Assembly: GCF_029953595.1 (NCBI RefSeq)
Contig: NZ_CP124535.1
Span: 3,703,001 to 3,767,000 of the forward strand
Length of the DNA stretch: 64,000 bases
Direction: 5' to 3'
Source of the DNA: Fuscovulum ytuae
GTDB lineage: Bacteria; Pseudomonadota; Alphaproteobacteria; Rhodobacterales; Rhodobacteraceae
Made by a program: the position numbers and the translations under genes. Positions 5,799-21,302 of the stretch are shown here, in pieces. Positions within the stretch are counted from its first letter, which is position 1; the number at the start of each line of letters is the position of its first letter. The notes below the pieces were generated by a model, which saw only the letters and a program-made list of their open reading frames with translations, had not been told where the DNA came from and made no database searches.

Positions 5799-6014
5799 GC
5801 GACGACCAGCCTCTGGTGAGAATGATCCGTTTCTATCGCAACGGGAACAGCTGCGATACCTAGACGTTCCGGGCGATTGTTCTGGCAACGAATGCCCCTT
5901 CCGCCAGAGCATCAAGTGGAATGCTGTTTCCGAAAAACGGCTTTGGGGATGAACAAATGTTTCCCGTTCGCGGTGACTGCGATGAAGACCGTTTTCCGCC
6001 CGTTGCTTCAGGGC

Positions 6015-6465
6015 CTATCGGCGTCGGTCTGATTTCGCTTGGATTGCGCTCTGCACCAACTTGCCGAAGGTACGATCCTTTTCGCAGCGTTCCACGAGGC
6101 TGGCGGAGTTGAAGGCGTTCTCGGCCTGGAGTTTGTGCCAGCGGTCGAGCCGCGCAGGGGCGAGGCTGTCGTTTCCGAAGGCGGACCGGACAGCGCAGCC
6201 GGGCTCTGTCTCGTGTCGGCAATCGGTGAAGCGGCAGCGGGCGGCCAGCGCGACCATGCTGGCGCGGTCGGTGATGGAGCCGACGGAAATCTCGTCGAGG
6301 AACCATACATGGACCTCCTCGCGGGACTTGGCGCGAAGAGGCGTCTCAAGAACGGGCTGCACCGCTTGCGCGCGGTGGGTTTCCATCGGGCCGGCAGGGG
6401 AAGCACTTGCTCCGTATGGTGGGAAACAGTCGTGTGGCCCTTCCGTCCTGCGCATGGCGTCGGGG
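6015..6465 (-). pseudogene. Degraded rsgA (ribosome small-subunit GTPase) C-terminal remnant
   Basis: Reading the minus strand, residues ending at 6015 match the zinc-binding C-terminal domain of RsgA: ARCRFTDCRHETEPGCAV followed by an RLDRWHKLQAE-like helix and the basic tail. Upstream, in another frame, a KGHTT segment at about 6430-6446 resembles the switch region of the GTPase. Between these the frame shifts and the DTPG region is not recognisable; the G1 Walker motif and OB-fold domain are absent. An intact RsgA is about 290-350 residues, so this is a relic. The flanks 5799-6014 and 6466-6730 show no convincing gene. Confidence 0.65.
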
Positions 6466-6730
6466 TGAAGGAGGTCGCCGACATGGGCTGAAGGCCAAGG
6501 GAGCCGACCTTCGGCGCCTTGGCCTTGTTCGCCTTGGCGATGGGGGTGACTTCCCGCATTCGGTGAAGAAGGCGGCCGAGCGGGCAGGGCCTGCACAAGT
6601 CCGATCTTCTGGCCAGTTTCGGGGTGCTACCCGATTCAGCGCCATGACAGCAGATCGTCGACCTTGGTGGTCTTGTCGTCTGGGATGCGGATGAGCGTGT
6701 CGGCGCGTGGGGGCGGCTGACGTGCTGGGG

Positions 6731-6922
6731 TCAGGCGGCGACGGGAGTGGCGGTCAGGCGGTGCGCCGGTTCTGCGGCCTTCACGACGGGGGAAAGCAGG
6801 AGGGCCGAGAGTGCCGCGTCGCGTTCGGTGTCGGTCAAAGCGCCAAGCTCGATCTGATGAGAAAGGGCCGAGGCGCGAGCGCGGAAGGCAAGGATGTCGG
6901 CAATCTGGCGGAGAATGTTCAT
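6731..6922 (-). CDS. Small hypothetical protein, 63 aa
   Basis: A possible short gene reading MNILRQIADILAF then an Ala-rich helical middle. The frame also stays open further upstream, to about 7006, but the internal ATG at 6922 fits better because it starts a compact amphipathic helix. I recognise no family. The upstream minus-strand DNA (about 6985-7020) is A/T-richer and contains TGCAGC/GCTGCA elements, which could be promoter sequence. There is no strong ribosome binding site. It lies between the rsgA relic and the end of the large minus-strand operon. Confidence 0.3.
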   Translation of the reverse strand: MNILRQIADILAFRARASALSHQIELGALTDTERDAALSALLLSPVVKAAEPAHRLTATPVAA

Positions 6923-7045
6923 ATTGGAAACCCGTGCAGAACCCTGTCGGTGGGACAAGGTTCTGTTAGGCTTCGCCGCATTTTTCTGCAAGTGCGAAGG
7001 CTGCATAGCTGCAATGCAGCGCGCGCTTCGCTTGGCAGGGGAAGA

Positions 7046-8473
7046 TCAGGGCAGCAGCGATACCATCCGCGTGCCATCCTCGTCCTTCGTGATGGACCAG
7101 ATCGCTTCGATCAGCCGATCCTGACCTGCCCCGTCGATCACGCCATCGCAGCAGGAGCGGAGCTTTGCCTCCACCTCGGCATCGGTCATCGGGTTGTCGG
7201 GGCCGCCGCGATAGCGTTCGTCGGCCCATCCGGACACTTCGGTCCCGTTCTTGCGGCGGATGGTTATGCGCGAACGCACCTTGTCAAAGCCCATCGCCTC
7301 GATTGCGGGGTCAAACTCGGTCCGGACACGGCGCTGCATGGCCTGCATGGCGTCGGAGCCTACGAATTCGTCCGAGAATTCGCGTTTGCCCGCCTGCCGG
7401 ACCAGCGCGATCATGGACACTTCGGCGGGCAGCGAGAATTTCGCCTCCAGATGGTTGGAAGCGATGGGATAGCGGATCGGCTTCAGGATGTTGGTCCCGG
7501 CATGGATGATGATCTGGTCGATCTCTTCGGGTTTCACATCTGCCTCGGTCACAAGGCGCAGCATCAGGTCCATCGTCGGATGGGTCAGGATACCGCAGGG
7601 ATAGGGTTTGATCGACACGCCGGGATTGGTGATTGACCATGTCTTGCCAAAGCCCTGCGCCATCTTTTCGGCGCTGACCCCGCCGCCCATGACGGCGAGG
7701 AAGCCCCAAGGACCATCCAAGGCCGCCGGATCGGCCCCGAAGCCCCGCTTGGCCAAGAGGGCCGCGGTGACGCCGTTCTCGCTGGCCCTGCCGACATGCA
7801 GGGGTTTTGTCATTGTCCCGAAGTTGCAGCGGATACCTGCGGCAAGGCTTGCCGCGATGCCGAACCCTTGCCGCAGTTCCGCGCCCCGCAGGCCAAGCAA
7901 CCATGCCGCCGCCGCGAAAGAGCCAAAGGTGCCGACGGTGCCGGAAGAGTGCTTTCCACTGAGGTAATGCTGGGGCAGCATCCATTCCGAAATCTTGCTT
8001 TCCACCTCGACCCCGGTTTGGAAGGCCGTCATCACCTTGCGGCCATCGACGCCCCCCATCATCTGGCCGATGCAGAGTGCTGCGGTGAGCGGTGGGATGG
8101 TGGGATGGGTCAGAAGGCCATAGACATGGGCCGGATCAACCGACACCTGCGTGTCGTCCCAATCATGCGCATGGCCTGCAGTGCCAAGGACGCGCGCCGC
8201 GATGCCGACCGGAACCTTCATGCCCGCGCCGCCCAAGAGGCGGGCATCGGCACGCCCGCCCATCTCGCGCGCATCCTCGATCAGGATATGGACGGAATGT
8301 TCCTCGCTGCCTGCCGCATAAAGACCTGCGGCATCCAGCATGCAGCGCCGCCCGATATGCAGGGCGTCATCGGGGATACTTTCAAAGGCCACAGACTCGA
8401 TGAACCGCGCCGCATCTTCGGTGATCGTCATCCCTTCGGGAATGCGGGCGAAATCGTTATTTGTGACGGCCAT
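7046..8473 (-). CDS. MmgE/PrpD family protein, cis-aconitate decarboxylase/epimerase-like (copy 1)
   Basis: About 475 residues, the usual size for the family. The MmgE/PrpD fold includes 2-methylcitrate dehydratase, cis-aconitate decarboxylase and iminodisuccinate epimerase. Here the active-site segments GHAHDWDDT (near residue 100), NFGTMTKPLHVG (near 215) and a KPYPCGILTHPTMD motif (near 290) are all visible, and TKPLH is characteristic of the decarboxylase/epimerase side rather than true PrpD. It is the last gene of the operon starting with tctC at 14650 and follows the rhodanese gene by 2 bp. The substrate is unknown; a carboxylated, TTT-imported compound is the natural guess. Confidence 0.85.
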   Translation of the reverse strand: MAVTNNDFARIPEGMTITEDAARFIESVAFESIPDDALHIGRRCMLDAAGLYAAGSEEHSVHILIEDAREMGGRADARLLGGAGMKVPVGIAARVLGTAGHAHDWDDTQVSVDPAHVYGLLTHPTIPPLTAALCIGQMMGGVDGRKVMTAFQTGVEVESKISEWMLPQHYLSGKHSSGTVGTFGSFAAAAWLLGLRGAELRQGFGIAASLAAGIRCNFGTMTKPLHVGRASENGVTAALLAKRGFGADPAALDGPWGFLAVMGGGVSAEKMAQGFGKTWSITNPGVSIKPYPCGILTHPTMDLMLRLVTEADVKPEEIDQIIIHAGTNILKPIRYPIASNHLEAKFSLPAEVSMIALVRQAGKREFSDEFVGSDAMQAMQRRVRTEFDPAIEAMGFDKVRSRITIRRKNGTEVSGWADERYRGGPDNPMTDAEVEAKLRSCCDGVIDGAGQDRLIEAIWSITKDEDGTRMVSLLP

Positions 8474-8475
8474 TG

Positions 8476-10053
8476 TCAGGCTCCTGCGGTCTTGCGTTTG
8501 TGGGTGAAATCGGTGGTTTTGGTTGTCGGCCAGAAGGTCAAGCCAGATGCCGCAAGGCGATCGAGCAGACCTGTCTCCCAGTCCAGATAGGCGCGTGCAT
8601 CATCCAGATTGCCGCGGTGGCGACCGGCGCAGAAGCGCACGGTGTCGATGTCGCGCGCGGGGTCGTCCGGGGTATCCGTCACGATGGTCAGCCCTGCGGC
8701 CTGCCATGTGGCGGGATCGTCGGGAAGGCAGCCCATGGCAGGATGACCCGCTTGGGCCAGATCGCCGGCGACCAGTCGCGCCATTTGAGGGTCGCCCGGG
8801 ATCAATCCCACGGGCGATGCGTGCGAAAGCGGTATCCGGTCGATCCGCGCGCGGAGCGCACGTTGCGCGCCACGTGGATGCGCCGAGCGGAATGCCACGG
8901 CCGAGCGCAGGTCGAGGAGGAGCGCATCGGGTGGAAGGGTCGTGATCGTTGGCGGGAGGTCCGGAAGTTGTAGGGGAGCCACGGTGGGGAGCGCGGGGGG
9001 ATCCTCGGTCATCACATACGCTTCGATGCCCATCCGGTTCAGCCACAGCGCGGCAAAAGCCGCCCGCACCAGAAGAGGGTCCCACAGCGCCACCCTTGCC
9101 CCTTTGACCGCGATGAAACGATCAGTCTGCTGGATCAGCGTGGTGCCCGGTGCGCGGCGGAATCCAGCAGGCGCTGTCCCCTCGTCTTCGGGCCGGGGAT
9201 CGAAGAAATATGTGGTCCGGTTCCCGTCGGCGGCCCATTCGCGCACATCTGCCGCCCGTGCCGTTGGCAGCCCGAACCCAGCCATAAGGTGACGTGCGCG
9301 GGCGCGGGCCCTCTCTCGGTTGGGGCCCTCGGGCAGGGGGAGAGAGCGGTTTGCGCCCATTTCACGCTGGCGGCCAGTGAGTTCCCAGCCTTGCGTGCCG
9401 TCGCGCAGGGCCATCACCTGCCCAGCCAGCCCAAAATCGCGCAGCGTTTGCGCCCCGATGATCGACCTTGTCCGTCCCGCGCAATGCACGACGATCGGCT
9501 GGCCCGGATCGTCTGATAGGCGCAGCGCAAGTTCGGCATTCGGGCAGTTTACCGAATGCGGCAGAGTGAAGGTGCGATGCTCTGACAGGGGGCGGCCATC
9601 GATGAGCAAGGGTGCCGTGCCGGATTGCATCCGCTGGAAGAGATCATCCGGGCCGATTTCGGGCACGGCATATTCATGCTGGACCCATTCACCGAAAGCC
9701 TTGGAAAAGCTGTGTTCCCCTTTGAACAGGGGAAGGCCCTGTGCCGCCCAGCCTACCGCCCCATTGGCAACTGTCATGATGTTGCGCCAGCCTGCCTTGG
9801 CCATGTGCCGCGCAGCCCGTTCGGCAACGCCGTCGCCTGCATCAAACAGCACGACGGAGACGTCCCGCCTTGGCAGCATGACGGGAAGGTCCAGTTCAAG
9901 GCGGCCGAAGGGGATGTTAACAGAGCCGAAGGGGTGGCCTTCGGCGGCTTCGCCCGCCTCGCGCAGATCGATGAAGGCCCATTCGGGCGATCCTGCCCGC
10001 AGCCGATCCATCACGTCGTTGGGCGTTATGCTGCTATGGGGGGCCGATGTCAC
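8476..10053 (-). CDS. Multidomain rhodanese-like sulfurtransferase
   Basis: About 525 residues containing four rhodanese-homology domains. The second (roughly residues 150-240) carries an intact active-site loop HCAGRTRS with catalytic Cys. The first has VLFDAGDG at that position (Asp instead of Cys), and the third and fourth also lack an active-site Cys, so one domain is catalytic and three are probably structural or regulatory. The GTG start at 10053 overlaps the upstream prpD-like stop (GTGA), indicating translational coupling. Rhodaneses move sulfane sulfur from thiosulfate or persulfides. Its position between two MmgE/PrpD genes suggests the pathway handles sulfur, but this is inference. 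Confidence 0.8.
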   Translation of the reverse strand: MTSAPHSSITPNDVMDRLRAGSPEWAFIDLREAGEAAEGHPFGSVNIPFGRLELDLPVMLPRRDVSVVLFDAGDGVAERAARHMAKAGWRNIMTVANGAVGWAAQGLPLFKGEHSFSKAFGEWVQHEYAVPEIGPDDLFQRMQSGTAPLLIDGRPLSEHRTFTLPHSVNCPNAELALRLSDDPGQPIVVHCAGRTRSIIGAQTLRDFGLAGQVMALRDGTQGWELTGRQREMGANRSLPLPEGPNRERARARARHLMAGFGLPTARAADVREWAADGNRTTYFFDPRPEDEGTAPAGFRRAPGTTLIQQTDRFIAVKGARVALWDPLLVRAAFAALWLNRMGIEAYVMTEDPPALPTVAPLQLPDLPPTITTLPPDALLLDLRSAVAFRSAHPRGAQRALRARIDRIPLSHASPVGLIPGDPQMARLVAGDLAQAGHPAMGCLPDDPATWQAAGLTIVTDTPDDPARDIDTVRFCAGRHRGNLDDARAYLDWETGLLDRLAASGLTFWPTTKTTDFTHKRKTAGA

Positions 10054-11564
10054 CGCATCCCCCGTTCGAACAAGCCCGCCGGGCTGTCTTGCAAAGGCAC
10101 AAGGTCTGCGACGATGCCGAAGGCGAAAAGCTGTTTGGCCGAAAGCGTGGCGAGTGTCTTGGCCTGTTCGAGAAAAGCCGAACTTTGTGCTTGCGAGACG
10201 AAAGGGGCGGTCAGGGTGTTGAACTTGCCGATATAATCCTGCTGGTCCCAAGGGGCTGCGCCGCGCGGATGGGAATCGGCCACCGCCAATTCATCCTCTC
10301 GCACGTCGCCGTTGAGAAGCCGAACCACCGCCCGCGCCCCATGCGCCTTGTCGAGTGGCGCGGCGGTATCGAAACGCTGGTTCCATTCCGGGTCTTCGAC
10401 GGTTTCGACCTTGCGCCACAAGGCGACGAATTCGGGGGCGGCGATGCGGGCCGGGTCGTAGCTGTGATCGTGGTGCCAGTGGCCGTCCACCAAAGCACGC
10501 GCGAATTGGAAAGGGGCGGAATGGTCGAGCGTCTCGCGCGAGGCGGCGGGGTCCCATTTGTCAGGATCGCCAGAGCCGGAGCCCATCACCATATGGGTCA
10601 TCCGTTTTGTATGCAGCGTGATCCGGTCCACCTGTGACAGATCCGGGAGGCGGTCGCGCAGTCGGAAGGCAAGGTCGATGATGGCCTGCCCGTGATATCC
10701 TGCCGAATGCGCCTTGGGCAGCGTGTCGAGGATCGCCCGGCACGGGTCTTGGGGGGCGGGCAGCGTCACTTCGCCCCCCATTCCCTTAAGGAGAACGGCC
10801 AAGATCCCGTAGTCACCTTCATAGATGGGCGAGGGTGCGGTTTCGCCGCGCATTGCGCGATCCACGGATTCGATGGCGGTTTTGCCGATATGGCCGGGTG
10901 CGGCGGCCTTCCACGACGAAATGCGTCCCTTGCGCACCTGCCGGGTCGAGAGCGACAGATGCGCGGCAAGATTGACCGCTTCATAGATCACCGGGACGGG
11001 CAGGGCCAACATGGAACCAAGCCCCGCCGCAATCGCAGGGCCGAGATGCGCCACATGGTCGATGCGGTGATGTTGCAGGGGCAGGGCACGGACAAGTGCT
11101 GTCTGCACCTCGTATGAGGTCAGGATGCCGCGGACCAGCGCTGCGCCGTCGAGCCTCGTTTGTTGTGCCACTGCCAGAAGCGGCATGATGCAATCCGCCG
11201 GATGGCTGCTGTCCAGCGCGAAATAGCTGTCGTGAAAATCGAGTTCGCGCACGGCTGTCGCATTCGCCATGGCCGCCCAGCCACAATCCGCGCGCTGTTC
11301 GGGGGCAAGGCCGATCACGCGCGCGCCACCGGCGCGCGGATGGCAGATCGCCTGGCCGCGGGCCGCGACGACCGGCGGGCGGTTCAGTGCGGCGATGGCG
11401 ACCGCTGCGTTGTCGATCAACCGCAGGGCTGCAAGTTCTGCTGCCGCCGGATCAATGGGCCTATCGTCCGCCGCTGCCAGTTCTGCCAGTTTCCATGCCA
11501 GCTGCGCTTCGGGCGCGGGGCGGGCATCGGGGCGGCAAACTGCAACGGGGAAGACAAGGCTCAT
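10050..11564 (-). CDS. 2-methylcitrate dehydratase-like MmgE/PrpD protein (copy 2)
   Basis: About 504 residues. This paralog is closest to genuine PrpD: it has VRELDFHDSYFA then SSHPADCIMPLLAVA, the ISSWKAAAPGHIG segment, and AMRGE then SPIYEGDYG, all hallmarks of 2-methylcitrate dehydratase. PrpD dehydrates 2-methylcitrate to cis-2-methylaconitate in propionate catabolism, yet no prpB, prpC or acnD is nearby, so its substrate may be an analogue delivered by the adjacent TTT transporter. Its start overlaps the tctA stop by 4 bp (11561-11564), and its stop overlaps the rhodanese start, so it sits inside one tightly coupled operon. Confidence 0.85.
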   Translation of the reverse strand: MSLVFPVAVCRPDARPAPEAQLAWKLAELAAADDRPIDPAAAELAALRLIDNAAVAIAALNRPPVVAARGQAICHPRAGGARVIGLAPEQRADCGWAAMANATAVRELDFHDSYFALDSSHPADCIMPLLAVAQQTRLDGAALVRGILTSYEVQTALVRALPLQHHRIDHVAHLGPAIAAGLGSMLALPVPVIYEAVNLAAHLSLSTRQVRKGRISSWKAAAPGHIGKTAIESVDRAMRGETAPSPIYEGDYGILAVLLKGMGGEVTLPAPQDPCRAILDTLPKAHSAGYHGQAIIDLAFRLRDRLPDLSQVDRITLHTKRMTHMVMGSGSGDPDKWDPAASRETLDHSAPFQFARALVDGHWHHDHSYDPARIAAPEFVALWRKVETVEDPEWNQRFDTAAPLDKAHGARAVVRLLNGDVREDELAVADSHPRGAAPWDQQDYIGKFNTLTAPFVSQAQSSAFLEQAKTLATLSAKQLFAFGIVADLVPLQDSPAGLFERGMR

Positions 11565-13069
11565 GCTTGCGGCCCTTCTGCCACCGCCTTTGCTGCCTTT
11601 CGCGCCAGAAGAATGTCACGCACCGCCGATCCTGTGACAAACAGTGCGGCAAGGATGAGCAGCCAAAGCGAGATGGGCGTTTCCCAGAAGATCCGGTGAT
11701 CCCCGACCGTCAGTTCCAAGGACCGCCGATAATTCGCCTCGATCAGATAGCCAAGCACTAGTCCAAGCACGAGCGGCAGGAACGGAAAACCGAAGACCCG
11801 CAGCAGATAGCCGATGACCCCAAACAGCAGCACGAGGTAGAGGTCGTAGGTGGAGTTGTGGATCGAATAGATCCCCGAAAAGACCAACGCGAAGATCGCG
11901 GCCATCAGATAGGGCTTTGGCCGATTCACTAGCCACAAGGCCGGGGTCATCATCACGATCCCCAGAAGAAGCTGCGAGATATTGGCCACGGCCAGCCCGC
12001 CGAAGAGGCCATAGACGAAATCCGGTTCTTTCTGAAACAGCATGGGCCCCGGCGTCAGCCCATGGATCAGCATCCCGCCCATCAGGATCGCTGCCGAATT
12101 CGAACCGGGAATCCCGAAGCTAAGAACCGGGACCAGCGCCGTGCAGGCGACCGCGTTGTTTGCGGCTTCGGGGGCGGCAATGCCTTCCTCGGACCCTTTG
12201 CCGAATTTCTCTGGCTCGGAGGACCAGCGTTTGGCTTCGTTATAGGACATGAAGGCCGCGATGGACCCGCCCGCGCCCGGCATCACGCCCTCAAAGATGC
12301 CGACACCGCTACCGATCCCCTGCGCTTTCCAGAGTTTGCGCCATTTGGCAAATGAAGGCAGCTTGATCTTGGTCTGCACGTTTCCGGTTTTGCCCCAGTC
12401 GGGCGTGTTCGCGGTCATCATCAGTTCGGACATGGCGAAGACGCCGACCATCACGATGACATATTCGATCCCAGTCAGCAGTTCGGGTTCGCCGAAGGTG
12501 AAGCGGGTGACGCCTGACAGCGGATCGGTGCCTATGGTGGCGATCATCAGGCCGAGGGTTGCCGCCATCAGCCCCTTGATCAGCGAGCCGTTGGACAAGG
12601 ACACGATGACCGAAAGGCCGAGGATGCCGAGGGCGAAATAGGCCGGGAAGTTGAAGGCCAATGCCACGCGCGAAAGCGGTTCGGTGAAGACGATCAGGAA
12701 GATCAGGCCAATCAAGCCGCCGATGACGCCTGATTGCAGGGAAATCCCCAACGCCTCACCCCCGCGCCCTTCGCGGTGCATGTAGTAGCCGTCAACCACC
12801 GTTGCGGCGGCTGCGTTTGTACCGGGCGTGTTGATAAGGATCGCAGGGATTGAGCCGCCGTATTCCGCGCCCACATAGGTTGCCCCCAAGAGGACGATGG
12901 CCGTGACAGGGTCCATGCCATAGGTGAAGGGAAGCAAGAGGGCCAGCGCGATCGAGGGCGAGATGCCCGGAAGCGCCCCACCGACGATGCCCCAGGCGAC
13001 GCCACCGATTGCCGCGAAGATCGCGGGTGTGGCGGTAAGGATGTTGAAGGCGGTGGAAATGCCGTCCAT
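11561..13069 (-). CDS. tctA: Tripartite tricarboxylate transporter permease TctA
   Basis: About 502 residues, highly hydrophobic, with roughly 11-12 membrane segments. The family landmarks are clear: GGALPGISPSIA near residue 30, AILINTPGT near 80, GVMPGAGGSIAAF near 260 and LSFGIPGSN near 320. TctA is the large membrane subunit of the secondary, cation-coupled TTT system and works with TctB and a periplasmic TctC receptor in importing citrate-like di/tricarboxylates, terephthalate and related acids. It lies 47 bp after tctB and overlaps the following prpD-like gene by 4 bp. The ligand cannot be told from sequence. Confidence 0.93.
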   Translation of the reverse strand: MDGISTAFNILTATPAIFAAIGGVAWGIVGGALPGISPSIALALLLPFTYGMDPVTAIVLLGATYVGAEYGGSIPAILINTPGTNAAAATVVDGYYMHREGRGGEALGISLQSGVIGGLIGLIFLIVFTEPLSRVALAFNFPAYFALGILGLSVIVSLSNGSLIKGLMAATLGLMIATIGTDPLSGVTRFTFGEPELLTGIEYVIVMVGVFAMSELMMTANTPDWGKTGNVQTKIKLPSFAKWRKLWKAQGIGSGVGIFEGVMPGAGGSIAAFMSYNEAKRWSSEPEKFGKGSEEGIAAPEAANNAVACTALVPVLSFGIPGSNSAAILMGGMLIHGLTPGPMLFQKEPDFVYGLFGGLAVANISQLLLGIVMMTPALWLVNRPKPYLMAAIFALVFSGIYSIHNSTYDLYLVLLFGVIGYLLRVFGFPFLPLVLGLVLGYLIEANYRRSLELTVGDHRIFWETPISLWLLILAALFVTGSAVRDILLARKAAKAVAEGPQA

Positions 13070-13116
13070 GTCGTGCAGACCTCGTCAATAAGGGGGAAGA
13101 AGCGGCCAGACGTCGT

Positions 13117-13656
13117 CTAGCCGAACAGCCCCGGCCAGAAGCCGGCAGGCAGCGGTATGCCAAGAAGCTGCACGAACAGAAGATAGAAGATCACGGCGAT
13201 CACCACCGCCACACCCGCTGTGTAGGCCCCGGCACGCGCCCCGATGTAGACGGAAACGGCGAGCATCAGCAGGATCACGCTGGGGATATAGCCAAGGGTC
13301 GGTAGGATCACGAGGTAGGCGATGCCGATGGCGACGATGCCTGCCGCTTTTAGATGCTGGCGCGGGGTGAACACTTGGCCGTCCTGTGGGGGACGATCCG
13401 CTGCCGCTGCGGTCGCCCGTCGGGCGGCGCGTAGATACATCACTTCGACCAGCAGGGCGCGCAGGACGAGAAGCACGCTGAAAAGCATCATGGCGATGCC
13501 GAGCATGTGTGGAAATACGGTGGCGTTCACCACGCCATCCAGGGGGCTGATCGGAATATCGCCGGCGGCCCGCCAGTACCATGCGCCAAGGGCAAAGGCC
13601 GCAAGGCCGATCCAGACATCGCGCGGGATACGGAAACGGGGCGCCGACGATTGCAT
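13117..13656 (-). CDS. tctB: Tripartite tricarboxylate transporter small membrane subunit TctB
   Basis: About 179 residues with four predicted membrane helices, including AAFALGAWYWRAAGDIPI near the N terminus and two closely packed C-terminal helices. TctB is the poorly conserved small subunit of the TTT transporter; assignment rests on size, topology and position between tctC and tctA. The start is ATG 13656, 9 nt after a GGAGG sequence; GTG 13659 is an alternative. The spacing to tctC is about 19 bp. Confidence 0.85.
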   Translation of the reverse strand: MQSSAPRFRIPRDVWIGLAAFALGAWYWRAAGDIPISPLDGVVNATVFPHMLGIAMMLFSVLLVLRALLVEVMYLRAARRATAAAADRPPQDGQVFTPRQHLKAAGIVAIGIAYLVILPTLGYIPSVILLMLAVSVYIGARAGAYTAGVAVVIAVIFYLLFVQLLGIPLPAGFWPGLFG

Positions 13657-13675
13657 CACTTCAAACCTCCCAAGG

Positions 13676-14650
13676 TCACTGCTTCAGGATGCCGTACTGA
13701 ATCAGGAAGGCCTTTTGCTGTTCGGCGAAGGCATTCAGGAAGGGTTCGTATTCTGCGGCGGGCATCAGCGTCGGCACAAGGCTTTGCGCCTCATACCATG
13801 CCTTGAAATCCGGATCTTCGAGGACCTTGGCGATACCGACAGCCCAGAGATCCTTGATGTCCTGCGGGATGCCCTTCGGACCGGCGATGCCGCGGAACTT
13901 GGTCACCACGAGATCGATACCCTGTTCACGCGCCGTGGGCAGGTCGGGCAGGTTGCCGAGCCGCTCTTCGGTGTAAGACGCAAGCAGCCTGATCTCGCCC
14001 GCCTCAATCTGCGGGCCAAGTTCCTGAATCTCGCCGATCGCGACAGCAACGGTGCCGTTGAGAACGGAGATCAGAAGTTCCCCACCGCCGTCATGGGTGA
14101 TGACGGGCGAAGTGACGCCGGTGATCTGCTTGAACTGCTCCATCACCTGACGATCAAGCGAACCGGGGGTCGTGACGCCAAAGGGCACAGCCGTCGGATC
14201 GGCCTTCGCCGCTTCGATCAGATCGGTGAGCGACTGGAATGGGCTGTCGGCTTTTACAAAGACGATCTGCGGGTCCATGAATACGTTCACCACACCTTCC
14301 ATGTCGGTGAAGTCATATTCCGGGTTCGAAAGCAGCGAGGTGTTGATGTAGGTGGGTGTCGTTCCATAGAAGATCGACCCATCCGCAGGCGACGTGGCAA
14401 GTTTCGCCATCGCATTCGCGCCCGAACCACCGGTCACGTTTTCGACCACGAAATTCGCGCCCATCGCCTTGCCAAGGAACCCGACCATCTCGCGCAGGAA
14501 GACGTCGGTGCCGCCCCCTGCCGAGGAATGGGTGACCAGCGTCACCGTATCATGCGGGTAGTCCTGTGCGGCCACCTGTCCTGCCACGCCGAATGCCAGC
14601 CCGGCGGACAGGATCGCGGCACCCGCGATTCGCCCAAATTCAAAACGCAT
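13676..14650 (-). CDS. tctC: Tripartite tricarboxylate transporter substrate-binding protein (TctC/Bug family)
   Basis: About 324 residues with a cleavable Sec signal peptide (hydrophobic stretch ending AGQVAAQD). The mature protein shows Bug-family signatures: VTLVTHSSAGGGTDVFLREM at the start of lobe 1 and VENVTGGSGANAMAKLA near residue 80. Bug proteins capture a carboxylate ligand through two water-mediated contacts and deliver it to TctAB. A GGAGGAGA ribosome binding site sits just upstream of the ATG. This is the first gene of a six-gene minus-strand operon (tctC-tctB-tctA-prpD-like-rhodanese-mmgE-like). Its promoter shares the 14651-14838 divergent region with the next MmgE/PrpD gene and may be under the GntR operator there. 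Confidence 0.93.
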   Translation of the reverse strand: MRFEFGRIAGAAILSAGLAFGVAGQVAAQDYPHDTVTLVTHSSAGGGTDVFLREMVGFLGKAMGANFVVENVTGGSGANAMAKLATSPADGSIFYGTTPTYINTSLLSNPEYDFTDMEGVVNVFMDPQIVFVKADSPFQSLTDLIEAAKADPTAVPFGVTTPGSLDRQVMEQFKQITGVTSPVITHDGGGELLISVLNGTVAVAIGEIQELGPQIEAGEIRLLASYTEERLGNLPDLPTAREQGIDLVVTKFRGIAGPKGIPQDIKDLWAVGIAKVLEDPDFKAWYEAQSLVPTLMPAAEYEPFLNAFAEQQKAFLIQYGILKQ

Positions 14651-14802
14651 CTTTTCTCTCCTCCCATGGCACAGCGCCCCTGATCCGGCCCCTGATACGG
14701 CCCCTGTGGGCTCATTCGCGCCTGCCGCCCTTTTCGGGGATGCGGTCGCGTCCGGTTGGGCGACTGTTGCGCTTCATCCTGCATCGAACTATCAAAATGT
14801 CA

Positions 14803-14814
14803 ATCGTAGACAAT
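14803..14814. promoter_or_regulatory. Candidate FCD-GntR operator in the divergent tctC / mmgE region
   Basis: ATCGTAGACAAT, a 5-2-5 inverted repeat with one mismatch (ATCGT / ACAAT). It matches the site upstream of the local GntR gene at 10 of 12 positions and fits the TnGT-n-ACnA pattern known for FadR/FCD regulators. It lies between the tctC start and the MmgE/PrpD start at 14839. Confidence 0.5.
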
Positions 14815-14838
14815 CTGCGATCTGCAAAAGAGGCGATG

Positions 14839-16200
14839 ATGTCTTGCTCTCCGACTGAAACCATGGCTGACCACATCGCCACGGCGCTGTCGCGCCCCTT
14901 GCCGCCCGAGGTGGAGGAGAAGGCACGGCTGCATCTTCTTGATACGCTGGCCGCGATCCTTTCGGGGGCGCATCTGCCCGCGGGGCTTGCTGCGGCGCGA
15001 CTGGTTCCACGCCTTGGCGGGCCGCCGGAGGCGGTTGTCATTGCCACCGGTCAGGTGACCGGCGTGGTCACGGCGGCGCTGGCCAATGCGATGGCCGCGC
15101 ATGCCGATGAAACCGATGACAGCCATGTCGGCGGGCGCTTTCATCCCGGCTGCGCCATCGTCCCCGCCGCGCTTGCCATGGCCGAGGCAGGGGGGCGCAG
15201 CGGGACGGATCTCTTGCGCGCGATCGTGCTGGGCTATGATATCGGGGCGCGGGCGGTGATGGGCATGGGGGTGCGGTCGGCCGATACGGCCCGGTTCTCT
15301 ACCCATAGCATCGGCGGCACCTTCGGCGCGACGGCGGCCGCTGCCGCATTGGCGGGTTTGGACAGGCGCGGCGCGATGCATGCGCTGTCTTATGCGGTGC
15401 AGCAGACATCTGGTGTGCCCTATTGGCGCCGTGACGCTGACCATATCGAGAAGGCCTTCGATTTCGGCGGGATCGGGGCGCGCAATGGCACGATGGCGGC
15501 GCTGATGGTGCAATCCGGCTGGACAGCGGTTGAAGGCGTCATGACCGGCAACCCGTCTTTTCTGTCAGCCTTCGGGGAACAGCCGAACCCCGCCGCGCTT
15601 TGCGACGGGTTGGGGCAACGGTTTGAGATCATGGGGGCGGCGATCAAGAAATGGTGCGTCGGTTCGCCCATACAGGCGGCGCTCGATTCGCTTATGGCCT
15701 TGATCGAGACGCATGGCATCGGCCCGCAGGATGTGGCCGAACTTCGGGCCATCATGCCGGATGACCGGCTGCATATCGTTGATGACCGCGACATGCCCGA
15801 TGTGTGTCTTCAGCACCTTCTGGCGATCTGTCTGATTGACGGCGGCCTTGGCTTCGCGGCTGCGCATGACCGCGCGCGAATGGGGGAGCCTGCTGTTCTG
15901 GCGCTTCGCGAGCGGATAAAGGCCATTCCAAGCAAGGAGTTGACGGAGGCGCGCCCGCCTCGTCAGGCCATCATCGAGATTGACACAAGGGGTGGCCGCA
16001 CCCTGCGCCATCATACCCGCGCAGTCCTTGGAACGCCTGCAAACCCGATGTCGCGCGATCAGGTGGTGGCCAAGGCCACGGACCTGATCAGTGCCGATCT
16101 TGGGGCGGAGAGGACCGACGCGCTTATCCGCGCCATCCTTGCGATCGAGGCGATCCCGGATGTGCGCGCGCTGCGCGGTTTGCTGTCCGCGCAGCGTTAA
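14839..16200 (+). CDS. MmgE/PrpD family protein (copy 3, divergent)
   Basis: About 453 residues. The family fold is recognisable from the N-terminal helix (MADHIATALSRPLPPEVEEK), the AAHADETDDSHVGG active-site loop near residue 85 and an IKKWCVGSPIQAALDSL segment in the position of the usual KPYPC motif; it lacks a TKPLH motif and is the most divergent of the five local paralogs. The start is placed at ATG 14839 because AAAAGAGG precedes it with 5-nt spacing and the upstream frame would run through the probable operator; ATG 14836 is equally in frame. It is divergent to tctC and convergent with the SDR gene. Enzymatic role unknown. Confidence 0.8.
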   Translation: MSCSPTETMADHIATALSRPLPPEVEEKARLHLLDTLAAILSGAHLPAGLAAARLVPRLGGPPEAVVIATGQVTGVVTAALANAMAAHADETDDSHVGGRFHPGCAIVPAALAMAEAGGRSGTDLLRAIVLGYDIGARAVMGMGVRSADTARFSTHSIGGTFGATAAAAALAGLDRRGAMHALSYAVQQTSGVPYWRRDADHIEKAFDFGGIGARNGTMAALMVQSGWTAVEGVMTGNPSFLSAFGEQPNPAALCDGLGQRFEIMGAAIKKWCVGSPIQAALDSLMALIETHGIGPQDVAELRAIMPDDRLHIVDDRDMPDVCLQHLLAICLIDGGLGFAAAHDRARMGEPAVLALRERIKAIPSKELTEARPPRQAIIEIDTRGGRTLRHHTRAVLGTPANPMSRDQVVAKATDLISADLGAERTDALIRAILAIEAIPDVRALRGLLSAQR

Positions 16201-16210
16201 GCCATGCCTG

Positions 16211-16972
16211 TCAGGGCATGAACATCCCGCCGCTTACATGCACGGTCTGACCGGTCATGAAGCGTGCCTCCGGCATGCAGAGGGAGAGGATGACGAAGGC
16301 TGCCTCGGCAATTTCGCCCTCGCGTCCGACGATTGGACCGCCCACGCCCATGGCCGGTGATTCCCCCGCCGTGGCGGATCGTTTGCCACCGATCTTGCCG
16401 GGTGCGACGCAGTTCGCGGTGATGTTGCGGTCGGCAAATTCCACTGCAATGGATTTTGTCAGACCCACCAGCCCGGCTTTGCCTGTCGCCACATGCGCAC
16501 GCTTCTTTGCGCCGACATGCGCTGAGACACCGCCCAGATTGATGATGGTGCCACCGCCCCGTTCCACCATGCTGCGCAGCGCTTCGCGGCTGCAAAGAAA
16601 GGCGCCGTCGAGAATGACGGAATTCGTCGCCCGCCATTCCTCAAGTGTCATGTCGATGAAGGGTTTCTCGCCCCGGATTGCCGCGTTGTTGACAAGGATA
16701 TCCACCCCGCCAAAGGCCGTCTTCGCCGCATCGAAGAGCCCCAGAACGTCGCGCTCGACAGTCACGTCGCCAAGCGCCACTTCTGCCCGGCGCCCCATGG
16801 CGCGGATCTCGGCGGCGACGGCCTCGACCTCTTCGCGCGACTGGCGCGCATGCACCACGACATCCGCGCCCGCCTGCGCGAGACCCAGCGCAACCGCGCG
16901 CCCGATCCTGCGCGAGGCGCCCGTGACCATGGCTACCTTGCCCTGCAAGGGCATGTCGGTCCTGTTCAACAT
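16211..16972 (-). CDS. SDR-family oxidoreductase with atypical active site
   Basis: About 253 residues with a Rossmann fold: the cofactor motif TGASRRIGRAVA near residue 18, the NNAA motif near 92, and the active-site Ser in NLGGVSAH near 145. The expected YxxxK is replaced: the sequence is RAHVATGKAG, so Lys is kept but Tyr is Val (with His just before). Some SDR subgroups show a similar HVxxxK arrangement, so this is probably a natural variant rather than decay. A GGGGAGGATCAAG ribosome binding site supports the ATG at 16972. It is divergent from the gntR gene and shares its regulatory region, so it probably belongs to the same regulon. The substrate is unknown. Confidence 0.85.
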   Translation of the reverse strand: MLNRTDMPLQGKVAMVTGASRRIGRAVALGLAQAGADVVVHARQSREEVEAVAAEIRAMGRRAEVALGDVTVERDVLGLFDAAKTAFGGVDILVNNAAIRGEKPFIDMTLEEWRATNSVILDGAFLCSREALRSMVERGGGTIINLGGVSAHVGAKKRAHVATGKAGLVGLTKSIAVEFADRNITANCVAPGKIGGKRSATAGESPAMGVGGPIVGREGEIAEAAFVILSLCMPEARFMTGQTVHVSGGMFMP

Positions 16973-17033
16973 CTTGATCCTCCCCGCCTACTGCGTGTCC
17001 GACGCGTCAGGTTGCACTTGCGCATCTTTGCCA

Positions 17034-17045
17034 ATTGTTGACAAT
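17034..17045. promoter_or_regulatory. Candidate FCD-GntR autoregulatory operator
   Basis: ATTGTTGACAAT, a perfect 5-2-5 inverted repeat (ATTGT / ACAAT) located 34 bp before the gntR start and about 60 bp before the divergent SDR start. The form matches the TnGT-n-ACnA class of FadR/VanR-type operators. A closely related copy is at 14803-14814. Confidence 0.6.
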
Positions 17046-17079
17046 ATGCAATGTGGTGATCCGAAAGGAAGGAACAGGT

Positions 17080-17781
17080 ATGGTCATGCGCGGTTTGCTG
17101 GAACCTTCGGAGGCACTCGACGTTCTCCGCACCTCGTCTTTGAGTAAGGTTGTGCAGGGCGAGATCGAGAAGATCATCCTGTCCGGTGCCTATGCGCCCG
17201 GCGAGAAGCTGAACGAAAAGACCTTGGCAGACCAGCTTGGCGTCAGTCGTGGCCCGGTGCGAGAGGCCTTTCAGGCCCTTCATGCGCGCGGTTTGGTTGA
17301 GATGATTCCCAATCGCGGCGTCTTTGTTCAGCGCATTTCGCGCCATGATGCGGTTGCGATCTACGATGTGCGCGCGGGCATTTTCGGAACGGCCTGCCGC
17401 CTTTTGGCGGAACGCATCACATCGGATCAGGCCAGCGAATTGCACGCGCTGATCGCGCAGATGGACGTGGCTGGCAAAAAGCGCGATCTGGATGCCTATT
17501 TCCCGCTGAATATCGCGTTCCACACTGCCATCGTCACGGGCACCGACAATCGGATCCTTGCCGAAACCTATTTCGGCCTCGTTTCCCGGCTGCAACTGTT
17601 CCGGGCGCGTGGCCTTGTTCATGGCGGTGGTTTCGAGAGTTCCAACATCGAACATCGTGCAATCATGGCGGCGCTGGACGCGCGCGATCCGCATGGCGCC
17701 TTTGAGGCGGGCTTTGCGCATGTGCAAGCGGGTAAGGCGCGCATCCTTGCCTCGGGCGATCCGCAGCAGGGGCGGACATGA
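17080..17781 (+). CDS. GntR-family transcriptional regulator, FCD subfamily
   Basis: About 233 residues. The N-terminal winged helix-turn-helix spans roughly residues 20-85 and contains the family signature GEKLNEKTLADQLGVSRGPV; the C-terminal all-helical FCD ligand domain has the Asp and His positions (PLNIAFHTAI near 150, SSNIEHRAIMAAL near 200) that bind metal and carboxylate effectors. FCD regulators usually repress catabolic operons and respond to an organic acid. Start ATG 17080 follows GAAAGGAAGGAACAGG. The 3' end overlaps the next MmgE/PrpD gene by 4 bp (ATGA). It most likely controls the surrounding MmgE/PrpD-TTT cluster through the two inverted repeats. Confidence 0.92.
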   Translation: MVMRGLLEPSEALDVLRTSSLSKVVQGEIEKIILSGAYAPGEKLNEKTLADQLGVSRGPVREAFQALHARGLVEMIPNRGVFVQRISRHDAVAIYDVRAGIFGTACRLLAERITSDQASELHALIAQMDVAGKKRDLDAYFPLNIAFHTAIVTGTDNRILAETYFGLVSRLQLFRARGLVHGGGFESSNIEHRAIMAALDARDPHGAFEAGFAHVQAGKARILASGDPQQGRT

Positions 17782-19163
17782 CGGCAAATCTGCCTCCGCC
17801 CGGACGGGCCTTGGCCGAAATCTATTCCGACTGGCTTTCCGGGCTGCGCCTGTCGGTGCTTCCGGAACAACTGCGGCAGGTGGCAAGCCTCGATCTTATC
17901 GATGCCGCTGGTCTTTGCATCGCTGCGCGCAACGAGCCCTATATGGCGCAGATCGTTTCAGGTTGGGACAGTGAGGGGCCTTGCACGGCCTTGGGGCATG
18001 CGCGTGGGCTGGATGCTGCGGGGGCTGCGGTGGCGAATGGTATCGCCATTCATGGCGAAGATTTCGACGACACGCTTGAAGGTGCGCCGATCCGCGTCGG
18101 CGCGATGACAATCCCGGCGGCACTGGCCGCGGCGCAGCGCTGTGGCTTGTCGGGCGAGCGGGCGTTTCTTGGCGTGGTGGCAGGTTTGGAAACGGTTTGC
18201 CGTCTGAACCACATCGCCCCCGGAGCAATCCACAAGGCGGGGTTTCACCCCGTCGGAGTGATCGGTGCGCTGGGCGCGGCGGCAGCGGCGGGCGTGACCT
18301 TGGGCCTTGATGCGCGCCAGCAGGCAAGGGCCTTCGGACTTGCGGGCAGCATGGCGTCGGGCATCCTTGAATATCTGTCCGAAGGGGCTTGGACCAAACG
18401 GCTGCATCCCGGCTGGGCAGCGCAATCGGGCCTTCGTGCGGCGATACTCGCGCGGACCGAGTTCTTTGCCCCGCGCACGGTTTTGGACGGGCCGCATGGT
18501 TTCTTTCATGCCTTCGCGCCGACGGCCACGCCGGACTTTACCCATCTGACGCACCGCTTGGGGGCCGATTGGTACGCGGAGCGCATCGCCTTTAAGCCAT
18601 ATGCCTGCGGGACGATGATCCATCCCTATATCGACTGCATGATCCGCCTTGCGGCGACAGGTATCACGGCAGACGAGATCAGCGCTATCACCTGTCCCAC
18701 AGGCGAGGGTCTGGTGCATCGCCTGTGGGAACCGCTGGCAGCGAAACATAATCCGCCATCGGGCTATGCGGCGAAATTCTCTATGCCGTTCTGCATGGCG
18801 GTCGGGTTCTTCGATGGCGACGCCGGTCTGTCGCAATTCACGGATGCCCGCGCCGCCGATCCCAAGGTGCTGCAACTTGCGTCGAAGATCAGCTACGTGA
18901 TCGACCCGGAAAACGAATATCCCCGCAATTATTCCGGCCATATTCGGGTGGAAACCACAAATGGCCGCCGGATCGCGCTGGATCAGCCGCACATGCGCGG
19001 CGGTGTGCGCGAACCGCTGAGCGAAGGGGACATCCGCGCCAAGGCCATTGCCAATTGCCGCCACGGTGGCTGGCCGGAGGATCGGGCTGCCCAACTCATT
19101 GACTGGGCGGCGGATCTTTCGCGCCAGCCCGATCTTTCCGGCCTAGCGGCCTTTGCCATCTGA
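17778..19163 (+). CDS. MmgE/PrpD family protein (copy 4)
   Basis: About 461 residues, overlapping gntR by 4 bp. The active-site loop reads NGIAIHGEDFDDTLEG (near residue 90), followed by WTKRLHPGWAAQSG (near 210) and FKPYACGTMIHPYID (near 275), the equivalents of the catalytic His, TKPLH and KPYPC segments in cis-aconitate decarboxylase and iminodisuccinate epimerase. It closely resembles the next gene (same EDxDxTxEG, TKRLHxGWAAQ and ENEYPxNYxGHIR blocks), so the two are tandem duplicates. The TKRLH variant suggests a substrate different from copy 1. Confidence 0.85.
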   Translation: MTANLPPPGRALAEIYSDWLSGLRLSVLPEQLRQVASLDLIDAAGLCIAARNEPYMAQIVSGWDSEGPCTALGHARGLDAAGAAVANGIAIHGEDFDDTLEGAPIRVGAMTIPAALAAAQRCGLSGERAFLGVVAGLETVCRLNHIAPGAIHKAGFHPVGVIGALGAAAAAGVTLGLDARQQARAFGLAGSMASGILEYLSEGAWTKRLHPGWAAQSGLRAAILARTEFFAPRTVLDGPHGFFHAFAPTATPDFTHLTHRLGADWYAERIAFKPYACGTMIHPYIDCMIRLAATGITADEISAITCPTGEGLVHRLWEPLAAKHNPPSGYAAKFSMPFCMAVGFFDGDAGLSQFTDARAADPKVLQLASKISYVIDPENEYPRNYSGHIRVETTNGRRIALDQPHMRGGVREPLSEGDIRAKAIANCRHGGWPEDRAAQLIDWAADLSRQPDLSGLAAFAI

Positions 19164-19179
19164 ACCTTTGGGAACACCC

Positions 19180-20547
19180 ATGACAGAGAAAACCGTTTCT
19201 GAATGTCTTGCCGACTGGTTGGCGGGGCTGGAGCTTGATCAAGTACCCGACAACGCCCGGAGGGCGGCTGCCGATACGATCTTGGATACTGTCTGTCTTA
19301 GCGTGGCCGCGCTTGAAACAGATTACGGGCAAGCCGTGCGTGCGGCCTTTCCCGATCCGGGCACCGCCACGGTCTGGGGCCTTGCCGAAGGCCGCAGTCC
19401 AGAAGCCGCAGCCGTGATCAACGGGACCTGCGGCCATGGCGAAGATTACGACAACACCTTCGAAGGCTGCCCCGTGCATACGGGTGTGGTGATAGTCCCC
19501 GCTCTTTTGGCGGCCGCGGAACGTTATGGTCTTGGCAGCACCGATGTGGCCCGTGGGATCATCGCCGGGATCGAGGTGATGTGCCGACTTGGTCTTGTCG
19601 CCGATAAGGCGGTCCATAAGGCAGGTTTCCACCCGACTGCCGTGTTGGGCGCAATGTCGGCTGCGGCTGCCGTGGCGACTGCGCTGCGGCTGGACCGCAT
19701 TGGAATACGCAACGCGCTGGGGGTGGCGGGGTCAACCGCGTCGGGCATCATCGAATATCTGGCGGATGGCAGTTCTACCAAGCGGCTGCATGCCGGATGG
19801 GCGGCACAGGCGGGATTGCGCGCCGCCGCGCTGGGTGCTGCGGGGTTTACCGGGCCGAAGACGGTCTTTGAAGGTTCGCATGGCTTTTTCTACGCCTTTT
19901 CGACCCCCCGCGCGACGGAGTTTGCGCCATTGGTGGATGACCTTGGCACCCGGTGGGAAGCCGCACGCTTGGCCTTCAAGCCCTTTGCCTGCGGGACAAT
20001 GACCCAGCCTTATGTCGATTGCGCCATCGACCTTGCCCGCCGTGGCATTCGACCCGAACAGGTGGTCCGCATCACCTGTGATGTGGGCGAAGGCACGGTC
20101 CATCGCCTGTGGGAACCATTGGACATAAAGCGCAACCCGCCCACGCCCTATGCGGCCAAGTTTTCAGGGCCTTATTGCCTTGCGGCGGGCTGGATTTGGG
20201 GGGATGCGGGGCTGGCGCAGTTCACCGAGGCGTCGGTGCGCGATCCACGGGCGTTGGACCTGGCGGCCAAGGTGCATTTCCGCATCGACCCGGAGAACGA
20301 ATATCCTGCAAACTATACCGGCCATATCCGTGCCGAACTTTCCGATGGATCGGTGGCGGAGTCGCGTGTTCCCTGCCTACGTGGTGGCGCACGTGCGCCG
20401 CTGACGCGCGAGGAATTACTTATTAAGGCGCGGGCGAACCTTGTTTTCGCAGGCCGCGACCCAGCCTCCGCCGACAGGTTGGCGCAGTGGTCAGATGCCC
20501 TGATGGAAGGAAAAGCCCCCTTCGCGACGGACGCGCTGAGGTGCTAA
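19180..20547 (+). CDS. MmgE/PrpD family protein (copy 5), tandem paralog of copy 4
   Basis: About 455 residues, 16 bp after copy 4. It shows CGHGEDYDNTFEGCP (near residue 85), STKRLHAGWAAQAG (near 205) and FKPFACGTMTQPYVD (near 270), aligning with copy 4 throughout. One difference in the last motif is Gln for His (TQPY versus IHPY). The start is placed at ATG 19180 rather than at an upstream in-frame codon overlapping copy 4. The stop overlaps the GTG of the TauE-like gene by 7 bp, so regulator, two enzymes and exporter form a single operon. Two near-identical enzymes side by side could form a heteromer or act on successive stereoisomers; both are speculation. Confidence 0.85.
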   Translation: MTEKTVSECLADWLAGLELDQVPDNARRAAADTILDTVCLSVAALETDYGQAVRAAFPDPGTATVWGLAEGRSPEAAAVINGTCGHGEDYDNTFEGCPVHTGVVIVPALLAAAERYGLGSTDVARGIIAGIEVMCRLGLVADKAVHKAGFHPTAVLGAMSAAAAVATALRLDRIGIRNALGVAGSTASGIIEYLADGSSTKRLHAGWAAQAGLRAAALGAAGFTGPKTVFEGSHGFFYAFSTPRATEFAPLVDDLGTRWEAARLAFKPFACGTMTQPYVDCAIDLARRGIRPEQVVRITCDVGEGTVHRLWEPLDIKRNPPTPYAAKFSGPYCLAAGWIWGDAGLAQFTEASVRDPRALDLAAKVHFRIDPENEYPANYTGHIRAELSDGSVAESRVPCLRGGARAPLTREELLIKARANLVFAGRDPASADRLAQWSDALMEGKAPFATDALRC

Positions 20548-21302
20548 CCGAGGCCCAGCTCCTTGCCGGCCAGATCCCGCCCATGGTCGCCCTTGCCGGG
20601 ATGGCCGTGTGCTTTTTTGCCGGCATGCTTGGCGGCCTGTCGGGTTATGGTGCGGGGCTGCTTGTCACGCTCTTTATCGCGCCCATTGTAGGGCCGAAGG
20701 CGCTGATCCCGATGATTTCGGTGCTTATGCTTGTGAACAATGGCAGCCGTGTTTGGTTCTACCGTCACGCTCTGCATCTGCCCACGGTGTTGAAAGTGTC
20801 CGCCGTCGCAATGCCGATGTCATGGATTGGGGCAGAGCTTTACGTGCGGCTCGACTCACAGATCATCCAGACAATCCTAGGTCTTGTGTTGATCGCGTCG
20901 GTTCCCATCCGCCGCTGGATCGATCGGGCGCAGATCACGCCCGGCCCCATCGCCGTCTATGGGATAGGTGCGACCTATGGTTTTCTTGCATCGCTGATCG
21001 TTGGGGCCGGGATGCTTATCGTTCCGATGCTGATGGGGATTGGCTTTGCAGGGCCTGCGCTGCTGGCCACGGATGCGGCGATCGCGGTGGTGACGAACCT
21101 TTTCAAGGCCGTCGTCTTCGGCGCGCTAGATGCGCTGTCCATGGCGCATTTCATTCTGGCGCTTATTCTTGGATGTTGCACCATTCCCGGCACGGCCTGC
21201 GCGGCTTGGATCGTGCGCCGCACCAGCCTGCGACTTCATACGGCGCTGATTGAGGGCCTGATCTTGGTCGGGGGATTTGGCATGGTTTTGGGCTTTATCT
21301 GA
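20541..21302 (+). CDS. Sulfite exporter TauE/SafE family membrane protein
   Basis: About 253 residues with about eight hydrophobic segments and the TauE/SafE landmarks: GMLGGLSGYGAGLLVTLFI near the N terminus and the repeat-related YGFLASLIVGAGMLIVPML in the second half. Family members export sulfite, sulfoacetate or other organosulfur/carboxylate anions across the inner membrane; many are of unknown substrate. The GTG start at 20541 overlaps the preceding stop; ATG 20583 is an alternative. Its presence with a rhodanese in the same cluster is the main hint of sulfur chemistry. Confidence 0.83.
   Translation: MLTEAQLLAGQIPPMVALAGMAVCFFAGMLGGLSGYGAGLLVTLFIAPIVGPKALIPMISVLMLVNNGSRVWFYRHALHLPTVLKVSAVAMPMSWIGAELYVRLDSQIIQTILGLVLIASVPIRRWIDRAQITPGPIAVYGIGATYGFLASLIVGAGMLIVPMLMGIGFAGPALLATDAAIAVVTNLFKAVVFGALDALSMAHFILALILGCCTIPGTACAAWIVRRTSLRLHTALIEGLILVGGFGMVLGFI

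Follow-up and report, generated by a model that had tools for sequence, protein, structure and literature searches.

Five MmgE/PrpD paralogs share a conserved but patchy gene block with a tripartite tricarboxylate transporter in Fuscovulum ytuae

Why does the genome of Fuscovulum ytuae hold five genes of the MmgE/PrpD enzyme superfamily side by side with a complete tripartite tricarboxylate transporter (TTT), a regulator and a putative anion exporter? In this study, we followed up an earlier note on a stretch of 64,000 nucleotides of contig NZ_CP124535.1 (assembly GCF_029953595.1, forward-strand positions 3,703,001 to 3,767,000; hereafter the window, in whose numbering all coordinates are given), which had pointed out this block and had proposed for it an undescribed multistep route for a carboxylated, possibly organosulfur, substrate. 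A search of the whole genome (4,185,011 bases) returned exactly five MmgE/PrpD genes, all of them at 7046-20547, so that chance clustering is not credible. Gene calls and Pfam agreed on the five copies, here named A to E, as both MmgE_PrpD domains (PF03972 and PF19305) scored far over their curated cut-offs in each. The block is real and conserved and is without a known pathway to explain it. It is probably, on balance, an inducible regulon for the uptake and catabolism of a substituted succinate-type di- or tricarboxylate. The features on which this reading draws are listed below; compared genomes and loci carry G and L numbers, respectively, and G198 is Gemmobacter aestuarii.

7046..8473, minus strand: MmgE/PrpD copy B, probably of the two-base epimerase/decarboxylase type (His, Tyr, TKPLH), from Pfam and residues
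8476..10053, minus strand: multidomain rhodanese-type sulfurtransferase, start inferred (PF00581 in two stretches; 1yt8, E 1.5e-65)
10050..11564, minus strand: MmgE/PrpD copy A, PrpD (dehydratase) type by Pfam, NF042438 and residues
11561..13069, minus strand: TctA, large membrane subunit of the TTT importer (PF01970)
13117..13659, minus strand: TctB, small membrane subunit of the TTT importer (PF07331)
13676..14650, minus strand: TctC, periplasmic binding protein of the TTT importer (PF03401)
14802..14818, no strand assigned: operator-like site AATCGTAGACAATCTGC, between tctC and C; in the same place in G198, L042, L043 and L045
14836..16200, plus strand (start inferred; open reading frame 14566-16200): MmgE/PrpD copy C, divergent, with an EKAFDFGG motif, from Pfam and residues
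16211..16972, minus strand: SDR-family oxidoreductase (PF13561 and PF00106)
17033..17049, no strand assigned: operator-like site AATTGTTGACAATATGC, between the SDR and GntR genes; in the same place in G198, L043 and L045, as a variant in L042
17035..17781, plus strand (start of the open reading frame; true start probably near 17080): FCD-domain GntR regulator (PF07729 and PF00392)
17778..19163, plus strand: MmgE/PrpD copy D, Arg106 replacing the catalytic His, from Pfam, residues and fold
19153..20547, plus strand (TTG start of the open reading frame; likely ATG near 19180): MmgE/PrpD copy E, catalytic His kept, from Pfam and residues
20541..21302, plus strand, start inferred: TauE/SafE-family anion exporter (PF01925), overlapping the end of E

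The genes tctC-tctB-tctA-A-rhodanese-B follow each other at tight spacing on the minus strand, with an overlap of tctA and A and, if the inferred start holds, of A and the rhodanese gene. The plus strand carries C, divergent from tctC, and the series GntR-D-E-tauE, in which GntR and D overlap at 17778-17781; the SDR gene is transcribed away from GntR. Homologs of TctA, TctB and TctC lie side by side, the composition of a TTT system, and Pfam confirmed every other non-MmgE/PrpD gene that had been named from the letters (rhodanese, SDR, FCD-GntR and TauE), the TauE protein with 72.7 bits against a cut-off of 32.6 for PF01925. In the 591-residue rhodanese open reading frame (ORF), residues 88-571 align with the sulfurtransferase 1yt8. 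The motif classes first assigned to the five copies were also right (A PrpD type, B TKPLH, D and E TKRLH, C divergent). A promoter and terminator scan gave nothing exceeding chance, and a tRNA search of the window found none.

The multi-PrpD unit is conserved but patchy. We scanned a genome collection with a D/E alignment and kept the best 80 of the candidate loci listed, none of which extends beyond 10 kb on either side; the survey goes deeper for D and E than for A, B and C. Neighbours were typed by best BLAST match against a hand-made reference set, not by a tree, and in this typing an over-long ORF together with the overlap filter masked copy D of L041; an overlap filter also masked the copy of G527 until it was read separately. 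Of the 80 loci, 13 have four or more copies (12 of 81 with a 330-residue length filter), 11 have three, 21 have two and 35 have one. In G198, which belongs to the same family but to another genus, the order TauE, E, D, GntR, SDR, C, TctCBA, A and B is that of the window, with block proteins 81–93% identical. G074 has E, D, SDR, C, TctCBA and A and, 9-10 kb off, a second module of three further MmgE/PrpD copies beside FCD, AbrB and isopropylmalate dehydrogenase (IPMDH)-type genes, for a total of seven copies in about 28 kb. On plasmid pDY25-A of Pacificitalea manganoxidans, five copies lie in 13 kb, these being E, C and A types with TctABC and SDR plus two second-module copies, while a B-type copy is located elsewhere on the 175-kb plasmid. 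Complete or near-complete blocks were found in Gemmobacter aestuarii, two Rhodobacteraceae metagenome-assembled genomes (MAGs), Silicimonas (truncated by the end of its contig), Kiloniellaceae, Aurantimonas and Albidovulum; in Pseudorhodobacter and Rhodoferax MAGs the block was partial or rearranged (all these block loci being L041-L048 and L064). The order A-TctABC-C/SDR/D-E is kept across families (L041, L042, L044, L045, L047 and L064).

The catalytic residues of the five copies were compared in an alignment of 205 sequences. In the family, the catalytic histidine is His99 of iminodisuccinate epimerase and His103 of human IRG1, and in the epimerase and the isomerase the second base is a tyrosine, with conserved carboxylate ligands (PMC7347537, PMC12290011; cited papers are drawn on here and below through excerpts). 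The earlier note had counted three known MmgE/PrpD reactions; a fourth, the (S)-(R)-methylsuccinate isomerase, has been published, so that four are assigned in a family whose known substrates have a common 1,4-dicarboxylate (succinate) backbone and whose homologs occur in 19.2% of the species surveyed (PMC12290011, 2025). A, B and E retain the catalytic His and Lys, as does C for the most part. Copy B has the catalytic His, the Tyr and all the carboxylate ligands, a set found in 24 of 24 members of its clade; it is probably of the epimerase/isomerase type by these residues, and its closest solved relative is iminodisuccinate epimerase 2hp0 (E 2.8e-47). The residues of copy A follow E. coli PrpD. 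Copy C keeps the His but has a deviating TKPxH region in an uncertain part of the alignment, and copy E keeps the catalytic His and has a His at the Tyr position.

In copy D, Arg106 replaces the catalytic histidine. The two tandem copies had been grouped by their shared TKRLH motif; the motif holds, but D and E are not equivalent because D has lost this histidine. The arginine is present in 24 of 24 members of the D clade and the histidine in 86 of 86 sisters, and all 24 Arg-type sequences form one clade with support of 0.991 (clades F and G are weakly supported, at 0.34 and 0.78). The remaining ligands examined are kept in all 24 D sequences. In 15 columns, one residue occurs in at least 95% of D sequences and in at most 10% of the 86 His-type sisters; columns 100, 105, 106, 107 and 110 lie in the catalytic-His loop, and 159 and 160 follow the conserved His157-Pro. 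Between the window and G198, the ratio of nonsynonymous to synonymous substitution (dN/dS) is 0.075 for D and 0.072 for E, and copy D is under purifying selection. Its AlphaFold model (mean pLDDT 87.1, pTM 0.89) has 6r6t as its best Foldseek match (TM 0.85, E 5.2e-25) and matches cis-aconitate decarboxylase, IRG1 and iminodisuccinate epimerase with TM of 0.83-0.86 on the query. We rejected D as a decaying pseudogene on its dN/dS, its pLDDT and the invariance of the arginine. The idea that D and E had each lost a different catalytic histidine was likewise discarded: the second column lies nine residues past the conserved lysine, with His282 in D and Gln in 81 of 86 sisters, is by count not His277 of human IRG1, and no catalytic role is claimed for it.

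Every D locus (22 of 22) has a His-type sister no further than about 3 kb from D, a figure biased by the fetching of loci via an E-led alignment. The spacing of D and its sister is that of a single gene in 15 of these loci, and in the other seven they are further apart, three times on opposite strands. When 385 genomes of the class were searched with D as lead sequence, 16 matched at E up to 1e-150. The motif was present in 15 of these, four of Arg type (this genome, G742, G709 and G442) and 11 of His type only, and was not found in G518; all four Arg-type genomes have a His-type copy within about 3 kb, and G742, G709 and G442 are apparently already among the 80 loci. With copy D as query, four of the 292 genomes of the order sample matched at E up to 1e-90: this genome and G198, with D, and G389 and G307, with a copy like that of Paracoccus versutus (that of G389 is identical to it and has the histidine). 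The D clade with arginine for the catalytic histidine is, at the level of sequence, a new observation, and a paralog of this kind, with conservation as strong as that of its sister, puts to the test the proposal of one histidine-based mechanism for all members.

FCD-GntR proteins bind motifs of the kind found at the two divergent junctions. The 17-base pattern has two perfect matches in the window (14802 and 17033) and one further match with three mismatches, compared with an average of 0.34 in 100 shuffles when up to three mismatches were allowed. Both junction sites recur in G198, L043 and L045; in L042 the tctC-C site is present and the other junction holds a variant that differs by one base, and all four of these loci also have an adjacent GntR gene. 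This operator-like site at both junctions points to one regulon.

From the gene content, the conservation, the catalytic-residue pattern and the recurrent site we infer a possible sequence of events. TctC with TctAB would import a di- or tricarboxylate, and the FCD-GntR protein would sense this substrate or an intermediate and act via the near-identical sites upstream of tctC/C and SDR/GntR-D-E-tauE. Several MmgE/PrpD enzymes would then catalyse proton transfers one after another on a substituted 1,4-dicarboxylate backbone, copy A probably a PrpD-type dehydration or hydration, copy B a two-base epimerisation or isomerisation, and copy C and the D/E pair a further epimerisation, elimination or decarboxylation. 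The SDR would oxidise or reduce a hydroxyl or keto group, TauE would export an anionic by-product, and D and E may cooperate, either as partners or as consecutive enzymes. The undescribed multistep carboxylate route originally proposed draws support from the conserved gene order, the TTT importer, the shared operator-like site, the lack of PrpB and the fact that excerpts of the open-access PMC literature describe no such cluster; the order of steps, the individual reactions, the regulation and the substrate class are put forward here as a model. Genes of the second module in relatives are of IPMDH, tartrate dehydrogenase and PdxA types and suggest that related islands may end in oxidative decarboxylation of hydroxy acids; the sole IPMDH-type match at E up to 1e-10 in this genome lies elsewhere with 35% identity, and that step is therefore not shown here. 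An island that recurs with four or five paralogs beside an importer, an exporter and a regulator would give practical access to several new activities at once, and the ligand of the importer alone would indicate the substrate for the full set.

Several results weigh against this regulon. The block has no annotated carbon-carbon lyase, CoA ligase or CoA transferase, which leaves entry of the product into central metabolism unexplained. The 17-base pattern was built from the same two junction sites that it then finds, and no such site was present at these junctions in L044, L047, L048, L050, L064, L036 and L023, of which L044, L047, L050 and L064 showed no GntR neighbour and L048 has GntR elsewhere. 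The G198 block has no rhodanese gene between A and B, and a 38% identical rhodanese homolog adjoins a second module of three copies on another contig. Copy D is absent from the pDY25-A block, and copy B is missing or elsewhere in several loci. Scattering of the five genes in relatives, which had been named as a result that would count against a common route, was not seen in the closest relatives, but among the 22 D loci, some of them cut by contig ends, A and C are both present in six, A in six and C in ten. Neighbour genes vary by locus (IPMDH, PdxA, TcuA, ComA and an enolase-superfamily pair), and related islands may therefore serve different substrates. Finally, G104, of the same genus, is without the block and has one MmgE gene elsewhere; in an empty-site comparison its flanks were not collinear with those of the window.

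An organosulfur substrate, as suggested from the outset, is unlikely but has some evidence in its favour. It would be a sulfonated or thio-substituted succinate or a related acid (e.g., sulfosuccinate, mercaptosuccinate or a sulfolactate relative), with the arginine of D binding the sulfonate or replacing general-base chemistry in a sulfite elimination, and TauE exporting the sulfite. By profile searches over all ORFs, with profiles built from these same loci, TauE occurs in 14 of 22 D loci and two of 58 others (Fisher 2e-8; loci related, not independent) and a ComA-like protein, of the (2R)-phospho-3-sulfolactate synthase family, in nine of 22 and none of 58 (Fisher 2e-6; kinship ignored). 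When only loci of at least 15 kb were counted, the figures were 12 of 17 versus two of 40 for TauE and seven of 17 versus none of 40 for ComA. TauE stands directly after E in eight of the 22 D loci, and both genes occur in several different arrangements. TTT systems are known for sulfolactate (Roseovarius, Chromohalobacter) and dithiodipropionate (PMC5812351), and a rhodanese-domain gene clusters with mercaptosuccinate dioxygenase, where TauE is a proposed sulfite exporter (PMC5373536). Rhodanese itself, however, does not track D (five of 22 versus six of 58, Fisher 0.16), and it is not supported as a core part, on this count and on its absence from the G198 block. TauE-family proteins are common, with seven in this genome, and transport of other anions also occurs in the family; in Thioclava, TauE is near a copy of B type with no D present. 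One ComA-like protein scored 120 bits against the NCBIfam model (cut-off 280), and ComA is absent from this genome and present without D in Paracoccus versutus. Ten scanned neighbour proteins were of mixed function (a nuclease, a glycosyltransferase, an ABC transporter, a kinase, an aconitase-family protein, an amidase and others) with no sulfur enzyme among them, and sulfonatase, sulfite dehydrogenase and thiol dioxygenase were all absent from the few neighbour proteins scanned with Pfam. The association with TauE and ComA, phylogenetically uncorrected, is limited evidence for such a substrate. A ComA-like gene was seen in L053, L054, L055, L056, L058, L062, L063, L066 and L067, directly before D in at least six of these nine.

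It is conceivable, if doubtful, that D is instead a partner of E without catalysis of its own or with a regulatory role, the two forming a heterodimer like other pairs of enzyme and pseudoenzyme. The clean split of Arg and His between D and its sisters, their near-constant proximity, in the biased 22 loci as in the four class genomes, and their like dN/dS fit this, and IRG1 of mouse and B. subtilis are dimers (PMC7707506, PMC7347537). The ligands kept throughout and the nearly invariant active-site loop also fit a new activity, though, and the seven loci in which D and E are more than one gene apart, with opposite strands in three, count against it. More speculatively, and with little expectation that all its parts hold, the D/E tandem could be a new MmgE/PrpD unit in which an Arg-for-His paralog that keeps its ligands acts with its His sister, as obligate partner or in a consecutive step, on a substituted succinate that is sulfonated or otherwise dianionic, a fifth reaction type (e.g., sulfite elimination), in a pathway made up mostly of one family's paralogs. 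That the five genes are a loose collection of paralogs assembled by lateral transfer, each in its own pathway, is improbable: B-type and E-type copies do occur singly with other TTT operons, 35 of 80 loci hold one copy and G104 lacks the block, but the order A-TctABC-C/SDR/D-E is kept across families, in some with the operator-like site at both junctions. Least credible is a methylcitrate-cycle or itaconate/methylsuccinate locus with duplicated genes. Family members act in both pathways (PMC12290011) and A resembles PrpD, but its score against the PrpD equivalog NF042438 was 585.9 bits (cut-off 950), those against two other PrpD models were 66.6 of 575 and 52.5 of 458 bits, and PrpB (TIGR02317) had no match in the genome. 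We rejected the methylcitrate cycle on these two grounds. The remark in the earlier note that prpBC and acnD are missing thus stands for PrpB, no search having been made for PrpC or AcnD. A CoA transferase, acyl-CoA dehydrogenase, enoyl-CoA hydratase and citramalyl-CoA lyase are not annotated in the block, the part of the genome to which this statement applies.

The regulon reading can be set beside known systems. The methylcitrate cycle (prpBCDE) shares a PrpD-type dehydratase, which copy A resembles, and differs from the block, which has five paralogs, a TTT importer, an FCD-GntR regulator and no PrpB in its genome. The pseudomonad itaconate/methylsuccinate cluster is alike in the catabolism of a C2-substituted succinate with an MmgE/PrpD isomerase (PMC12290011), and in P. 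aeruginosa a putative transporter is adjacent, as in the block (PMC9875883); as described in the excerpts, however, it has one MmgE/PrpD gene and needs the CoA transferase, dehydrogenase, hydratase and lyase that the block lacks by annotation. Iminodisuccinate epimerase of Agrobacterium tumefaciens BY6 is the best solved sequence match for B, C and D; copy B keeps its proposed bases His99 and Tyr145, whereas D is without the His, both D and E have a His at the Tyr position, and the fold of D is by E-value slightly nearer to cis-aconitate decarboxylase. SlcHFG, for sulfolactate uptake in Roseovarius nubinhibens and Chromohalobacter salexigens, is likewise a TTT importer for organosulfonate catabolism, and no MmgE/PrpD cluster is mentioned in the excerpted text of PMC5812351. 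Characterised TTT systems, with one exception, take ligands with two acidic or similar groups (PMC5812351). Excerpts of the open-access literature in PMC, which leaves subscription literature largely outside, describe no cluster of this kind.

Genes on either side of the block were also compared. Just downstream, 21636-23719 holds a gene for a PF16896-type dehydrogenase and one for a RuBisCO-like protein that is related to OiaX (432 bits, cut-off 700); the pair is not supported as part of the unit, with no BLAST match in the 80 loci or the G198 stretches. Upstream, at 163-5732, lie an ORF which we take to be an MttB-like methyltransferase, an FMN oxidoreductase fusion and a family 5 solute-binding protein. 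The first had no match in the compared loci, the second none in the relatives with which it was compared, and the third only matches of 22-25% identity, in four loci.

Other recurrent groupings were seen around MmgE/PrpD genes. A second module in L027, L038 and L023 has two or three MmgE/PrpD genes, an AbrB-type membrane protein, an IPMDH-type dehydrogenase and an FCD regulator. Two adjacent enolase-superfamily genes recur near MmgE/PrpD islands (L036 at 4751-7283, L056 and L108), and in L036 an operator-like site lies at 4935, near the start of the first enolase-superfamily ORF.

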